Shown one piece after another: positions 29,203-49,276 of a DNA stretch of 64,000 bases (position 1 is the first letter of the stretch; each line of letters starts with the position of its first letter). Made by a program: the position numbers and the translations under genes. Origin of the DNA: Inquilinus sp. Marseille-Q2685 (GTDB lineage Bacteria > Pseudomonadota > Alphaproteobacteria > DSM-16000 > Inquilinaceae). The notes under the pieces are model-generated. The model was not told where the DNA came from and made no database searches. It was given only the letters and a program-made list of their open reading frames with translations. Location of the stretch: positions 248,001 to 312,000 of the forward strand of contig NZ_CAKAKL010000001.1 of assembly GCF_916619195.1 (NCBI RefSeq). Direction: 5' to 3'.

Positions 29203-29934
29203 ATGAGGGCTTGCCCTGGCCTGATGATCGCGGCCCCGGCCTCCGGCAGCGGCAAGACGGTGGTGACGCTCGGCTTGCTGCGGCATCTGCGCGACCGTGG
29301 AGTCGCCGTGGCCTCGGCCAAGTCCGGCCCCGACTATATCGACCCCGCCTTCCACGCCGCGGCCGGCGGCCGGCCCTGCGTCAACCTCGACGCCTGGGCG
29401 ATGCGGCCGCAGACGCTGGATGCCCTGGCCGCACAGCAGGCCGAGGGGGCGGAACTCCTGGTCGTCGAGGCGGCGATGGGGCTGTTCGACGGCGCGCCCG
29501 GGCCCGGCTCCGTCGGCGACGGCTCGGCCGCCGACCTCGCCGCCCGCTTCGGCTGGCCGGTGATCCTGGTGCTGGACGCCGGCGGCCAGGGCTTCTCCGC
29601 CGCCGCGGTGCTGGCCGGCTTCAAGGCCTTCCGAGAGGACGTCCGGATTGTGGGCGTGATCTTCAACCGGGTCGGCAGCGCCCGGCACGAAACGATCCTG
29701 CGCCGTGCTGCAGATCACGCCGGGCTGCCCGTGCTGGGGCTCGTCCTGCGGCTGCCGGCCCTGGCGCTGCCCTCCCGCCATCTCGGCCTGGTCCAGGCCG
29801 GCGAGCATGCGGCGCTGGAGGCGTTCCTGGCCGCGGCGGGAGAGGCGGTCGGGGCGGGGATGGATGTGGAAAGGCTGCGCCAAGCTTGTTCTGAAGCCCA
29901 GCAAGATATCCTCCCCCCCTGCGGGAGGGGGTAG
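29203..29934 (+). CDS. cobB: Cobyrinate a,c-diamide synthase, N-terminal ATPase domain (gene split by repeat)
   Basis: N-terminal half of CobB/CbiA, which amidates the a and c carboxylates using ATP and glutamine. The 243 residues hold the dethiobiotin-synthetase-like domain with P-loop APASGSGKT (residues about 11-19) and GPDYIDPAFH. Normal CobB is about 430-460 residues in one chain. Here the frame runs into a palindromic repeat and stops at 29932-29934 after ILPPCGRG. The glutaminase half follows in another frame, open right through the repeat. A -1 shift at the seven-C run 29913-29919 would join them into about 479 residues. This may be two polypeptides, a frameshifted gene, a recoding site or a homopolymer sequencing error. 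Confidence 0.88.
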   Translation: MRACPGLMIAAPASGSGKTVVTLGLLRHLRDRGVAVASAKSGPDYIDPAFHAAAGGRPCVNLDAWAMRPQTLDALAAQQAEGAELLVVEAAMGLFDGAPGPGSVGDGSAADLAARFGWPVILVLDAGGQGFSAAAVLAGFKAFREDVRIVGVIFNRVGSARHETILRRAADHAGLPVLGLVLRLPALALPSRHLGLVQAGEHAALEAFLAAAGEAVGAGMDVERLRQACSEAQQDILPPCGRG

Positions 29935-30030
29935 GGGAGGGGGCTCGGGCCGAGAGAACAATTGGGCGGGCCTGCACTCTTCGATCGACAAACCCCCCGC
30001 CGGCCCCCTCCCGCACGGGGAGGGGGAGTG
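29905..30030. repeat. G/C-rich palindromic element inside cobB
   Basis: About 126 bases between the two CobB domains. The left arm CCCCCCCTGCGGGAGGGGG and right arm CCCCCTCCCGCACGGGGAGG pair with each other, and each is itself a hairpin. The inner sequence contains TCGACAAACCCC. The same arms and the same TCGACAAACCCC occur in the element inside cobN (about 45214-45342), so they are one family. Boundaries are approximate. A length not divisible by three would explain the frame change. Confidence 0.8.
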
Positions 30031-30038
30031 TTGAGAGA

Positions 30039-30641
30039 TTGGCCTTGCCATCCCTCGGCCAGCGCATCGCCGTGGCCCGGGACATGGCCTTCGGCTTCGC
30101 CTATCCCCATCTCCTGGCCGCCTGGCGTGAGGCGGGGGCGGAGATCCTGCCGTTCTCGCCGCTGGCCGACGAGGCGCCGGATCGCTCCGCCGACGCCGTG
30201 TACCTCCCCGGCGGTTATCCCGAGCTCCAGGCCGGTCGCCTCGCGGCCAACCGCCGCTTCCTCGACGGGCTGCGCACGGCGGCGGGGCAGGGCCGGACGG
30301 TCTCCGGCGAATGCGGCGGCTACATGGTGCTCGCCCCCGGCCTCACCGATGCCGAGGGGAACCGCCACGCCATGGCCGAGCTGCTGCCGGTCGAGACCTC
30401 CTTCGCCGAGCGCCGGCTGCATCTCGGCTATCGCCATGCCGTCCTGGCCGCCGCGATGCCGCTCGGCGCCGTCGGCACCGTCTGGCGCGGCCACGAGTTC
30501 CACTACGCCTCGATCCTGTCCGAAGGGCCGGGCGAGGCGCTGTTCGAGGCCTGGGACGCGGAGGGCGCGCCGCTCGGCCCGATGGGCCGGCGCGCCGGCT
30601 CGGTCTTCGGCTCCTTCTTCCACCTGATCGACCGGGCATGA
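30039..30641 (+). CDS. cobB: Cobyrinate a,c-diamide synthase, C-terminal glutaminase domain (gene split by repeat)
   Basis: The type I glutamine amidotransferase half of CobB, 200 residues. LGQRIAVARDMAFGFAYPHLL is the usual start of this domain. YLPGGYPEL follows, then the nucleophile Cys in SGECGGYMVL and the late GHEFHYAS. The first start after the repeat is TTG 30039, with GGGGGAG (30022-30028, right end of the repeat) about 10 bases upstream, so independent translation is possible. The frame is open leftward to 29895 without a stop. The catalytic residues look intact, which argues against long decay. The stop overlaps the cobC ATG. Confidence 0.88.
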   Translation: MALPSLGQRIAVARDMAFGFAYPHLLAAWREAGAEILPFSPLADEAPDRSADAVYLPGGYPELQAGRLAANRRFLDGLRTAAGQGRTVSGECGGYMVLAPGLTDAEGNRHAMAELLPVETSFAERRLHLGYRHAVLAAAMPLGAVGTVWRGHEFHYASILSEGPGEALFEAWDAEGAPLGPMGRRAGSVFGSFFHLIDRA

Positions 30642-42480: not shown

Positions 42481-42544
42481 GCCCCCTGAGCCGCGCCATC
42501 GATTGACCGCCCGTCCCGCGCCGCCTACTGTGCCGCCATCGCGC

Positions 42545-42730
42545 AGCCGGTTCCCCGAAGGCAGACGCCCGAGGGGTGAAAAGGGAACGCGGGATGGCCG
42601 ATCCTTGGCCTGATCCGCGGCTGCCCCCGCAACTGTAGGCGGCGAGCCCACCTCCGACAGCCACTGGCCGATGGCCGGGAAGGCGGAGGCGGGCGACGAC
42701 CCGCGAGCCAGGAGACCTGCCGGCGAGGCG
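42545..42730 (+). promoter_or_regulatory. Cobalamin (AdoCbl) riboswitch
   Basis: Conserved elements occur in order. GGTGAAAAGGGAAC is near 42575 after a GGTTCCCC...GAGGGG stem. GCTGCCCCCGCAACTGTA is at about 42619-42637. AGCCACTG is near 42659, GCCGGGAAGGC at about 42674-42684, and the B12 box AGCCAGGAGACCTGC at 42706-42720. The layout is that of an adenosylcobalamin aptamer. It precedes cobP by about 130 bases. Two hairpins in between (42761-42786, arms GGTGGCGC/GCGCCACC; 42809-42832, arms GCCCCT/AGGGGC) may be the expression platform. There is no U-run, so control may be at translation or by Rho. Cobalamin would repress cluster II. Confidence 0.95.
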
Positions 42731-42856
42731 ATGCGTGCGAACCGCCGGGCGGGGTGTACCGGTGGCGCGGGATGCGCGGCGCCACCAGGCACCGACTCCG
42801 GCGTCCGAGCCCCTTCCGGCCGAGCGAGGGGCGTGGCGTGAAGCATCGACCGACTG

Positions 42857-44441: not shown

Positions 44442-44572
44442 CCCCCTCACCCGAAATCGCTACGCGATTTCGACCTCTCCCCAAGGAGAGGTGCATCAGC
44501 GCGCGCCGTCTGTTTCCCTCTCCTCGGGGAGAGGGAGGGACCCGTCGCGTTGGCGACGGGAGGGTGAGGGGG
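44442..44572. repeat. Composite inverted-repeat element between cobW and cobN
   Basis: CCCCCTCACCC at the left end pairs with GGGTGAGGGGG at the right. Inside are a GAAATCGCTACGCGATTTC hairpin, two CTCTCC...GGAGAG hairpins and CCGTCGCGTTGGCGACGG. Closely related copies occur at 49147-49276 and 50789-50902, one with this orientation reversed. About 131 bases. Confidence 0.9.
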
Positions 44573-44603: not shown

Positions 44604-45344
44604 ATGCATCTCCTCGCCGCCAAGCCGGGCAGCATCGCCGATGGGTCGGAGGCGGTCGATCTGGGCCAGAGCCCGGGCGACATCGTCGTCCTGACCGCGG
44701 CGGACACCGAGCTCGCCTGCCTGTCGGCGGCGTGCGCCGGCTTCGGCGAGAATTTCCTCCGGCTGCGCCTGGCCAACCTGCTGCAGCTCGGCCACAACCT
44801 GTCGGTCGACACCTATGTCGACGACGTGGTGAGCCGGGCGAAGCTGGTGGTGGTGCGCCTTCTGGGCGGCGCCGGCTATTGGCGCTACGGCATCGAGCAG
44901 GTGCACGCCGCCTGCCGGCGCGAGGGCATCGCCCTGGCGGTGCTGCCGGGTGACGACAAGCCGGATGCCGATCTCGACGGCCTCTCGACCCTGCCGGAAG
45001 AGGCGAGGGGGCGGCTGTGGCGCTACCTGGCCGAGGGCGGCATCGAGAACGCTCGCGGCTTCCTGGCCTATGCCGCGAGTCTGATCGGCCACGACCTGCC
45101 CTGGGCCGAGCCCCGGCCGCTGCTGCGCGCCGGCCTGTACTGGCCGGACCTGCGGCATCCGTCGTTCGGTGAGATCGAGCGGCGGTGGAACCAAACAGAG
45201 GCAACCCTGCCAAATGTCTCCCCCTCCCCCTGCGGGAGGAAGGGAGGAGGGCTGGCGCCGCAAGATCCGGATCAGCAGGCCAAGTCCGATCCCCGCCTCG
45301 ACAAACCCCTCCCCTGCCCCTCCCGCAAGGAGGGGAGGATCTGA
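44604..45344 (+). CDS. cobN: Cobaltochelatase CobN, N-terminal part (gene split by repeat)
   Basis: N-terminal portion of the large chelatase subunit that inserts cobalt into hydrogenobyrinate diamide with CobS and CobT. Residues 1-200 are typical CobN (MHLLAAKPGSIADGSEA, DLGQSPGDIVVLTAADTELA, VRLLGGAGYWRYG, VLPGDDKPD). After EIERRWNQTEATLP the frame enters a palindromic repeat and stops at 45342-45344, leaving about 40 repeat-encoded residues. The rest of CobN continues in another frame. Removing one base in the overlap would join them into about 1302 residues, against roughly 1275 for the family. ATG 44604 has GGGGAG nine bases upstream. Confidence 0.9.
   Translation: MHLLAAKPGSIADGSEAVDLGQSPGDIVVLTAADTELACLSAACAGFGENFLRLRLANLLQLGHNLSVDTYVDDVVSRAKLVVVRLLGGAGYWRYGIEQVHAACRREGIALAVLPGDDKPDADLDGLSTLPEEARGRLWRYLAEGGIENARGFLAYAASLIGHDLPWAEPRPLLRAGLYWPDLRHPSFGEIERRWNQTEATLPNVSPSPCGRKGGGLAPQDPDQQAKSDPRLDKPLPCPSRKEGRI
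45214..45342. repeat. G/C-rich palindromic element inside cobN
   Basis: About 130 bases between the N-terminal region and the main body of CobN. Left hairpin CTCCCCCTGCGGGAGG, right hairpin CCCCTCCCGCAAGGAGGGG, with TCGACAAACCCC between them as in the cobB element (29905-30030). Ends are approximate. It contributes an ATG at 45214 in the frame of the downstream cobN portion. Confidence 0.8.
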
Positions 45345-48300
45345 GGAGGGCGCTCCGCACGCCACCACAGCCCCCATCGTCGGCCTCGTCTTCTACCGCG
45401 CCCTGGTGCAGGCCGGGAACCTGGCGCCGGTCGATGCGCTTGTCGCGGCCCTCAAGGCCCGCGGCCTGAACCCGCTGCCGGTCTTCGTCTCCAGCCTCAA
45501 GGACGCGGTCTCGGCCGAGCTCGTGGCCGACGCCTTCGCCCGCCACAAGCCGGCGGTGATCCTGAACGCCACCAGCTTTGCCGTCTCCAGCCCCGGCGGC
45601 CCGGCCCAGCCGACGCCCTTCGACGCGGCGGACTGCCCGGTGCTGCAGATGGTGTTCGCCGGCGGCGCCGAGGCGGCGTGGCGCGACGGCACCCGCGGCC
45701 TGTCGGCGCAGGATCTGGCGATGAACGTCGCCCTGACCGAGATCGACGGCCGGGTGCTGACCCGCGCCGTGTCCTTCAAGTCCGAGGCGCGCTGGGATCC
45801 GCTGACCGAATGCACCGTGGTGTCCTACCGCCCGGTGCCGGACCGGATCGGCTTCGTCGCCGACCTGGCCGCCGCCTGGGCCCGGCTGCGCCGCACGCCG
45901 CCGGCGGAACGCCGGGTCGCGCTGGTCTTGGCCAACTACCCGAACCGCGACGGCCGCCTCGGCAACGGCGTCGGCCTCGACACCCCGGCCGGGACGGTCG
46001 AGGTGCTGCAGGCCCTCACCGCGGCCGGTTACCGGGTCGAGGATCCGCCGGCCGACGCCACCGCGCTGATGGCCCGCGTCTCCGCCGGTCCGACGAACGC
46101 GCTGGCGGACCGGGCCGATCGCTCCGGCGGCGTGTCCTATCCGCTGGCCGAGTACCGCGCTCACTTCGACAGCCTGCCCGAGGCCGTCCGGACCGCCGTG
46201 ACCGACCGCTGGGGTGCGCCCGAATCCGATCCCTTCGTCGAGGGCGATGCCTTCCGCCTGGCGGTGCATCGCTTCGGCAACGTCGTCATCGGCGTGCAGC
46301 CGGCGCGGGGCTACAACATCGACCCGCAGGCGACCTATCACGACCCGGACCTGGTGCCGCCGCACGGCTACCTGGCGTTCTACGCCTGGCTGCGACAGGG
46401 ATTCGGGGCCCAGGCCATCGTCCATATGGGCAAGCACGGCAACCTGGAATGGCTGCCGGGCAAGGCGCTGGCGCTGTCGCGGGAGTGCTTCCCCGAAGTA
46501 GCGTTCGGCCCCGTCCCGCATCTCTACCCCTTCATCGTCAACGACCCGGGCGAAGGCACCCAGGCCAAGCGCCGCGCCGCCGCCGTGATCATCGACCACC
46601 TGACGCCGCCGCTGACCCGGGCCGAGAGCTACGGCCCGCTGAAGGACCTGGAGGCGCTGGTCGACGAATACTACGAGGCCGCCGGCATGGACCCGCGCCG
46701 GCTCAAGCATCTGCGCGACCGCATCCTCGACCTCGCCCGGTCGACCGGCCTGGACCGCGACTGCGGCGTGGCGGCGGATTCCGATTCCGACTCCGCTTTG
46801 GCGCAGATCGACAACCACCTCTGCGAGCTGAAGGAGATGCAGATCCGCGACGGCCTGCACATCTTCGGCCGCTCGCCGCAGGGCGACCAGCGCACCGACC
46901 TGCTGGTGGCGCTGACCCGAGTGCCGCGCGGGACGGGGCAGGGCGGCGACGCTTCGCTGATCCGTGCCTTGGCGACGGATCTCGGCCTCGGCTTCGATCC
47001 GCTCGACTGCCGCTTTGGCGACGCCTGGGCCGGGCCGCGCCCGGCGCTGCTGGGGCCGGAGACGGGCTGGCGCACCCATGGCGACACGGTCGAGCGGCTG
47101 GAGGGATTGGCGCGAGACCTCGTCGCTGGCGCCCGGACGCTCGAATCCGACTGGGCCGCCACCGCCGCCGTCCTCGGCGAGATCGAGGCCACCGTCGCGC
47201 CCTCCGTCGACCGCTCCGGCGCCGCCGAGATCGACGGGCTGCTGCGCGGGCTGGCCGGGCGCTTCGTGCCGCCCGGCTCCTCCGGCGCGCCGACCCGCGG
47301 GCGGCTGGACGTGCTGCCGACCGGGCGCAACTTCTATTCGGTCGACAGCCGCACGGTGCCGACGCCGGCCGCCTGGCATCTCGGCTGGAAATCAGCCTCC
47401 CTCTTGGTTGAGCGGCACCGGCAGGAGCACGGCGACTGGCCGCGTTCGATGGCGCTCAGCGCCTGGGGCACCAGCAACATGCGCACCGGCGGCGACGACA
47501 TCGCCCAGGCCCTGGCGCTGCTCGGCGTGCAGCCGCGCTGGGATCCCGCGTCCCGCCGCGTCACCGGCTTCGAGGTGATGCCGGAAGGCGTTCTGGGCCG
47601 GCCGCGGGTCGACGTGACCCTGCGCGTCTCCGGCTTCTTCCGCGACGCTTTCCCCAGTCAGATCGACCTGTTCGACAGCGCCGTCCGCGCCGTCGCCGCG
47701 CTGGACGAGCCGGAGGAGGCGAACCCGCTCGCCGCCCGCGTCCGGGCCGAGACGGCGGCGCTGGTCGAGGGCGGGATGCCCGAGGCCGAGGCCCGTCGCC
47801 GTGCCGGCTTCCGGGTCTTCGGCTCCAAGCCGGGAGCCTATGGCGCCGGCCTCCAGGCGCTGATCGACGAGAGGCTGTGGCGCGACGAGGCGGATCTCGG
47901 CCGCGCCTATCTGGAATGGGGCGGCTGGGCCTATGGCGACGGGGCCGAGGGTGCGGCGGCGCACGACCTGTTCGCCCGGCGACTGGAGAAGGTCGAAGCC
48001 GTCGTCCATAACCAGGACAACCGCGAGCACGACCTGCTCGATTCCGACGATTACTACCAGTTCGAGGGCGGGCTGGCGGCGGCGATCCACCATCTGTCCG
48101 GCGCCCGGCCGGCCGTGTGGCACAACGACCATTCGCGCCCCGAGCGGCCGGTGATCCGCACCCTGCGCGAGGAGATCGCCCGCGTCGTCCGCGCCCGGGT
48201 GGTGAACCCGAAATGGATCCGCGGCGTGATGCGCCACGGCTACAAGGGCGCCTTCGAGATGGCGGCGACGGTCGACTACCTGTTCGCCTTCGCCGCCACC

Positions 48301-48513
48301 ACCGACGCGGTGGCCGACCACCAGTTCGACCTGGTCTACGACGCGATGCTCGGCGACCCCGAGGTGCGGGCCTTCCTGGAGCAGGCCAACCCGGCGGCGG
48401 CGCGCGAGATCGCGGAGCGGCTGCAGGAGGCGCTGGACCGCGGCCTGTGGCAGCCGCGCGCCAATGCCGTCACCCATGAGCTCGACCTGATGACGAAGGA
48501 GCCCCACTCATGA
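45214..48513 (+). CDS. cobN: Cobaltochelatase CobN, main C-terminal part (gene split by repeat)
   Basis: The rest of CobN, beginning at APIVGLVFYRALVQAGN, which in intact CobN follows the segment where the upstream frame is lost. Conserved blocks are intact: YPNRDGRLGNGVGLDTPAGT, HMGKHGNLEWLPGKAL, FIVNDPGEGTQAKRRA, ESYGPLKDLEALVDEYYEA and HNQDNREHDLLDSDDYYQF. The frame is open to 45169. Possible starts are GTG 45169 and ATG 45214, both inside or before the repeat; the next in-frame GTG (45406) would cut conserved residues. Lack of any other disruption over 1050 codons suggests the split is recent, tolerated or apparent. It ends overlapping cobO by four bases. Confidence 0.9.
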   Translation: MSPPPPAGGREEGWRRKIRISRPSPIPASTNPSPAPPARRGGSEEGAPHATTAPIVGLVFYRALVQAGNLAPVDALVAALKARGLNPLPVFVSSLKDAVSAELVADAFARHKPAVILNATSFAVSSPGGPAQPTPFDAADCPVLQMVFAGGAEAAWRDGTRGLSAQDLAMNVALTEIDGRVLTRAVSFKSEARWDPLTECTVVSYRPVPDRIGFVADLAAAWARLRRTPPAERRVALVLANYPNRDGRLGNGVGLDTPAGTVEVLQALTAAGYRVEDPPADATALMARVSAGPTNALADRADRSGGVSYPLAEYRAHFDSLPEAVRTAVTDRWGAPESDPFVEGDAFRLAVHRFGNVVIGVQPARGYNIDPQATYHDPDLVPPHGYLAFYAWLRQGFGAQAIVHMGKHGNLEWLPGKALALSRECFPEVAFGPVPHLYPFIVNDPGEGTQAKRRAAAVIIDHLTPPLTRAESYGPLKDLEALVDEYYEAAGMDPRRLKHLRDRILDLARSTGLDRDCGVAADSDSDSALAQIDNHLCELKEMQIRDGLHIFGRSPQGDQRTDLLVALTRVPRGTGQGGDASLIRALATDLGLGFDPLDCRFGDAWAGPRPALLGPETGWRTHGDTVERLEGLARDLVAGARTLESDWAATAAVLGEIEATVAPSVDRSGAAEIDGLLRGLAGRFVPPGSSGAPTRGRLDVLPTGRNFYSVDSRTVPTPAAWHLGWKSASLLVERHRQEHGDWPRSMALSAWGTSNMRTGGDDIAQALALLGVQPRWDPASRRVTGFEVMPEGVLGRPRVDVTLRVSGFFRDAFPSQIDLFDSAVRAVAALDEPEEANPLAARVRAETAALVEGGMPEAEARRRAGFRVFGSKPGAYGAGLQALIDERLWRDEADLGRAYLEWGGWAYGDGAEGAAAHDLFARRLEKVEAVVHNQDNREHDLLDSDDYYQFEGGLAAAIHHLSGARPAVWHNDHSRPERPVIRTLREEIARVVRARVVNPKWIRGVMRHGYKGAFEMAATVDYLFAFAATTDAVADHQFDLVYDAMLGDPEVRAFLEQANPAAAREIAERLQEALDRGLWQPRANAVTHELDLMTKEPHS

Positions 48514-49146: not shown

Positions 49147-49276
49147 CCCCCTCACCCTCCCGCCGCCAACGCGGCGAGCCCCTCCCTCTCCCCGAGGAGA
49201 GAGGTATCTGAGCCGGGCTTGCTTTACCTCTCCTTGGGGAGAGGTCGAAATCGCGCAGCGATTTCGGGTGAGGGGG
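49147..49276. repeat. Composite inverted-repeat element between cobO and cobQ
   Basis: CCCCCTCACCC...GGGTGAGGGGG ends, CTCTCCCCGAGGAGAG and CCTCTCCTTGGGGAGAGG hairpins and GAAATCGCGCAGCGATTTC at the right. Same family as the elements at 44442 (reverse orientation) and 50789. Its right end (AGGGGG, 49271-49276) lies 10 bases before the cobQ GTG and may serve as its ribosome-binding site. Confidence 0.9.

Follow-up and report, generated by a model that had tools for sequence, protein, structure and literature searches.

The cobN gene of Inquilinus sp. Marseille-Q2685 occupies positions 44604 to 48513 (plus strand) of the window, the 64,000-nucleotide stretch of contig NZ_CAKAKL010000001.1 analyzed here, and its reading frame switches inside a two-hairpin repeat at ∼45217 to 45345. 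The features at this locus are as follows, with G003 denoting a genome of the same genus and 9uk9 a solved CobN structure.

42531 to 42738, plus strand: cobalamin riboswitch upstream of the cobN part of the cob cluster (Rfam RF00174, 107 bits)
44604 to 45190, plus strand: cobN N-terminal domain, about residues 1 to 196 (NCBIfam CobN models match residues 1 to 185; the G003 equivalent aligns to residues 1 to 197 of 9uk9)
45214 to 45216, plus strand: ATG in the body frame, just before and outside the left hairpin (sequence; alignment to G003)
45217 to 45251, plus strand: left hairpin of the cobN repeat, with arms decayed relative to G003 (sequence, alignment to G003, and fold)
45298 to 45309, plus strand: TCGACAAACCCC, a 12-mer common to the cobN and cobB copies (exact match)
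45306 to 45345, plus strand: right hairpin of the cobN repeat, containing the TGA stop of the N-part ORF (sequence; alignment to G003)
45385 to 48513, plus strand: main body of cobN (PF02514), shifted to frame +1 with respect to the N part (ORF and domain matches)

As the preliminary description had stated, the N part and the body lie in different frames, and the change falls within the repeat. The N-part ORF extends from 44604 to the TGA at 45342 to 45344, while the body ORF, which overlaps it, spans 45169 to 48513 in frame +1. A coding-potential Viterbi track is coding to 45191, noncoding from 45192 to 45340, and coding again from 45341. The CobN profile TIGR02257 is matched over its full length, with the N part matching the start of the profile and the body alone scoring 1510.9 bits (cutoff, 822). 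No further damage was seen in the N part or the 1044-residue body. With one base fewer, the two parts would indeed fit a single chain of 1302 residues, as originally proposed; however, alignment to G003 reveals several small indels plus substitutions in the window copy, not a one-base difference.

The repeat had also been said to supply an in-frame ATG at 45214 for the downstream part. This codon is in the body frame; it immediately precedes the left hairpin, however, and the equivalent site in G003 is ACG. It is nonetheless available as a start, and the break falls at a domain boundary, with both parts remaining under purifying selection (see below). These points would suit a functional split, in which the N part and the body, starting at this ATG or a similar one, are two associating polypeptides. 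We consider such an arrangement distinctly unlikely, given that the ATG is unconserved, that no clear ribosome-binding site was placed for it, and that relatives keep one frame. Among the relatives, none was found that combines the same split with a known functional split protein.

The second interrupted gene of the pathway, cobB, lies in the same window.

29203 to 29934, plus strand: cobB N-terminal (CbiA) half, its ORF ending within the repeat (ORF and domain matches)
29897 to 30040, plus strand: the other within-gene copy of the two-hairpin repeat, in the linker joining the two CobB domains (sequence comparison)
30039 to 30641, plus strand: cobB C-terminal (GATase_3) half, in a frame that differs from that of the N half (ORF and domain matches)

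The earlier claim that the two repeats are related holds: TCGACAAACCCC occurs in cobB at 29985 to 29996 as well as in cobN, and besides these two genes there are only two exact copies in the 7.29-Mb genome. Apart from those in cobN and cobB, the 64 kb showed no frame breaks, and the remaining frame changes in the Viterbi track look like ordinary gene junctions. No second copy or paralogue able to rescue CobN or CobB was found in the genome. The halves of cobB are out of frame by a step opposite to that of cobN, such that cobN needs +1 and cobB needs −1. A programmed frameshift as a common mechanism was rejected on these grounds. Recoding more generally, whereby ribosomes shift or hop over the hairpins to yield one chain despite the frame change, could draw on the C-runs followed by strong hairpins, but it would have to accommodate these opposite shifts, and relatives and unrelated taxa are plainly in frame; we regard it as extremely improbable.

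Comparison with relatives indicates that the insert preceded any break. The nearest genomes, which belong to the same genus, carry the same cobN insert at the same place. In G003, the element keeps the frame, giving a single 1306-residue CobN chain with a PLPLREGGRGRG stretch in the insert; in G005, the same element is also in frame. Other genera of the family (that of G009, together with G016, and others) have no cobN insert. Thus, the uninterrupted cobN that the preliminary description had proposed to look for in close relatives exists both with and without the insert. Its contention that the repeat broke the genes did not survive, as congeners carry the element in frame at the same place and unrelated repeats stand in frame at the CobN site; insertion as the cause of breakage was accordingly rejected. 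For cobB, G003 contains the full element in frame between the CbiA and GATase_3 domains within one 478-residue ORF. The same linker contains a single in-frame hairpin in G005 and a different palindrome, also in frame, in G004, indicating that more than one repeat family has entered the CobB linker as well. The G004 palindrome (locus L147) reads GTTGGGTTCGC / GCGAACCCAAC. The cobB linker has no insert in G009 and G017.

Across a broader set of 88 cobN loci, which left out the copy of draft genome G002, 86 keep the frame through the linker, all but the window and the copy of a second draft, G001, which contains an N in the repeat. The G001 and G002 copies are both out of frame, but these frame losses weigh little because G002 is in 1190 contigs and the G001 repeat contains that N. 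Separately, a record named Mycobacterium sp. KBS0706 (L065, NZ_VCCH02000200.1) has a cobN 94% identical to that of the window and belongs to the same genus; it is apparently a misnamed alphaproteobacterial genome.

These frame counts raise the prospect that the living strain is in frame and that the window carries a wrong base count in GC-rich hairpins. We treat this as a subquestion of the main explanation given below and rate it at a little under even odds. In addition to the in-frame state of most loci and the N within the G001 repeat, an error would be consistent with the several contigs of the window's assembly that end in or next to repeat copies. Retention in the genome of B12-binding proteins, including a 1278-residue ORF of MetH size, and of the cobalamin riboswitch likewise speaks for it, and ordinary selection on both cobN halves would be compatible either with an error or with a very recent change. 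An error would nevertheless have to occur twice independently, in 64 kb without any other frame break seen, and most differences between the window copy and G003, comprising several indels and substitutions, look like real divergence.

Selection was assessed from dN/dS. On the window branch, the values were 0.10 to 0.17 for the cobN N part, 0.09 to 0.12 for the cobN body, and 0.13 to 0.17 for the cobB N half, which are like those on other branches. The cobB C half gave 0.31 to 0.43 on the window branch versus 0.09 to 0.16 on others, albeit from few changes. Both cobN halves and the cobB N half are thus under ordinary purifying selection, with the cobB C half mildly relaxed. The raised value for the cobB C half, taken with the finding of two genes of one pathway out of frame, is what would be expected if cobB and cobN had been recently inactivated and the strain's own B12 synthesis had ended. 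We judge this loss unlikely, since the N part and 1044-residue body of cobN are otherwise undamaged with ordinary dN/dS and since the B12-binding proteins and riboswitch are retained, although a very recent real loss is hard to exclude.

The insert site is an interdomain linker. When G003 CobN is aligned to 9uk9, residues 1 to 198 correspond to residues 1 to 197 of the structure and residues 259 to 1301 to residues 198 to 1249; the insert therefore falls between adjacent residues 197 and 198 of 9uk9. An AlphaFold model was obtained for the first 559 residues of a CobN from another lineage with an insert at this linker (L121, Rhizobiales AFS098815). The model has a mean pLDDT of 81, with confident domains on either side of the insert, whereas residues 204 to 234, between a helix (188 to 195) and a strand (240 to 246), have a pLDDT of <50 and no secondary structure. 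From this model, the CobN linker insert is probably disordered.

BLAST searches of the window's genome located approximately 40 elements (113 matching pieces), and a core pattern retrieved more. The census is based on pattern and BLAST matches, and the cobB and cobN copies of this genome were missed by the core-pattern scan and recovered by BLAST. Exact hairpin cores number 98 in the window's genome and range from 81 to 180 per genome in six genomes of the genus, with none in 25 genomes of other genera searched. Two-hairpin copies mostly measure 130 to 150 nt between outer cores, although the intragenic G003 copies are shorter. Nearly all copies are intergenic, commonly 20 to 45 nt after a stop codon. 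No Rfam family was found over the element.

Of the ∼70 G003 elements, two-hairpin copies lie inside genes only in cobN and cobB, which upholds the suggestion that finding the same repeat in two genes of one pathway is not due to chance. Read-through elements in G003 are confined to cobB, cobN, and one TerC gene (70 elements scanned; 56 in the window's genome). A wide intragenic spread of the repeat was rejected, as most scanned elements lie just 3′ of a stop codon. The TerC case (G003 L233, 1127 to 1849) is a TerC-family membrane protein gene with a single in-frame hairpin, giving the peptide NPLPLSPSREGRGDSN. The intragenic copies seen in the better relatives are in frame. Each of the six frames is stop-free in 53 to 73% of 88 copies, and an element landing in a gene would thus often leave an open frame. 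The lengths of these 88 copies fall into all three classes modulo 3, so only about one-third of landings would keep the frame.

A side observation concerns whalefall-1 (Rfam RF01762), which has been reported to be a certain noncoding RNA known only from environmental sequence (PMC2864571). It matches the window at 44443 to 44494 (minus strand) and 49224 to 49275 (plus strand). There are 84 matching places in the window's genome and 67 in G003, with none in G009 or 14 controls. In this genus, whalefall-1 behaves as a dispersed palindromic repeat; thus, its status as a small RNA gene deserves review.

The same CobN linker is occupied in other lineages. Unrelated palindromic sequences are found there, in frame, in L121 and in Rhodospirillales Ww62 (L123). 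The L121 gene (9272 to 13282) also carries a second copy of its repeat in a loop near residue 770, all within a single frame of 1336 codons. When 386 genomes of the class were surveyed, 142 had a match, and further in-frame linker inserts of unrelated repeats were recovered in G394 and G254; these are dispersed in their own genomes (∼25 and 3 to 4 copies, respectively). In G204, two contigs (L309 and L310) terminate exactly at this linker of cobN, both with an identical inverted sequence, CTGTCAGCCCCCCTCACCCTGATCCC. Because an inverted repeat breaks assemblies in just that way, this suggests that the G204 linker hides another palindromic insert behind the assembly break. In an alignment of 85 full-length CobN proteins, inserts of at least 18 residues occur at only three sites; of the five such inserts, this linker holds three, and one of the other two is likewise a palindromic repeat.

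Judging from these sequences, at least four other alphaproteobacterial lineages have received different dispersed palindromic repeats, in frame, at this one CobN linker. In the literature searched, we found no earlier description of such recurrent use of one CobN linker by different repeat families, nor any paper covering cobN repeats or the palindromes of this genus. The simplest reason for the recurrence, we infer, is tolerance of the site rather than a function of the repeat, although a function for the hairpin element at this linker is possible. A stronger proposal, which we consider very improbable, is that the linker is a true hot spot selecting structured palindromic inserts, for example as translation-pausing mRNA hairpins, and that the window strain bridges the break or uses a split cobaltochelatase subunit.

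Taken together, the explanation we favor, with a probability of roughly 85%, is that a genus-specific palindromic repeat entered the CobN and CobB linkers in frame in ancestors and that the break in the window is secondary. A two-hairpin, GC-rich repeat (REP-dimer or MITE-like) would have inserted in the interdomain linkers of both genes in ancestors of the genus. The element contains few stops in whichever frame it is read, and the linkers accommodate additional residues; in-frame insertions would therefore have survived, and the inserts would have been kept as proline/arginine/glycine-rich, probably disordered linkers of ∼45 to 60 residues. The frame through the insert is open in relatives at the nucleotide level, from which we infer its translation. 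The window copy differs from in-frame relatives by several small indels whose total is not divisible by three, which breaks the frame here; the cause is either a mutation, recent or tolerated, in sequence that is dispensable or an assembly error in a hairpin-rich stretch. Against this account, the window copies of both genes are out of frame, as are the cobN copies of G001 and G002, and the raised dN/dS of the cobB C half would fit a real cobB break. If all out-of-frame copies are real, the reading that the frame is always kept is weaker.

By analogy, the description that best suits the cobN/cobB repeat is that of a palindromic element inside genes, comparable to Rickettsia palindromic elements (RPEs) and intragenic REPs. 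RPEs are dispersed palindromic repeats of ∼100 to 150 bp that lie between and inside genes and are read in frame (PMC2229807, PMC3733652). The likeness, drawn from descriptions of the Rickettsia families, consists of multicopy palindromes dispersed in an alphaproteobacterium, both between and within genes, and in frame as extra residues. The cobN copies of G003 and G005 and the cobB copy of G003 are in frame inside conserved genes and absent in outgroups; the window's own copy, unlike these, is out of frame. The element also differs from RPEs in its genus, its GC richness, and the intergenic location of nearly all copies, with three intragenic cases in G003.

GTAG/CGTC REPs are short palindromes, often in inverted pairs, located just 3′ of genes and sometimes within ORFs, and different REPs occur at about the same recB site in two Xanthomonas species (PMC3733652). 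The present element shares with intragenic REP dimers the paired short palindromes, the position just 3′ of genes, and the occasional location inside ORFs; in contrast to those dimers, the recurrence here spans several bacterial families at a single linker. GTAG occurs at some position within many hairpin arms (e.g., GGGGGTAGGGGGAGG). A search for a RAYT that might mobilize the element gave no Y1_Tnp (RAYT-type, PF01797) gene in G003 despite its ∼70 elements and one weak PF01797 match in the window's genome. Caulobacter intergenic repeats (CIRs), also from alphaproteobacteria, consist of two inverted-repeat arms and a linker (PMC2229807). While this architecture is shared, CIRs are reportedly never intragenic and have stops in all frames, whereas the element here is sometimes intragenic and has each frame open in a majority of copies. 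The GANTC motif of CIRs lies within 25 nt of only 48 of the 88 elements.

For annotation in this genus, pathway loss should not be claimed from "split" cobN and cobB calls until these have been checked for hairpin assembly errors. The inserts of the CobN linker constitute a natural series for testing insert neutrality. More broadly, a genus-specific palindromic repeat from outside Rickettsia joins the elements known inside conserved genes, and a single linker, in an enzyme essential to aerobic B12 synthesis, has been hit independently by at least five different repeat families.
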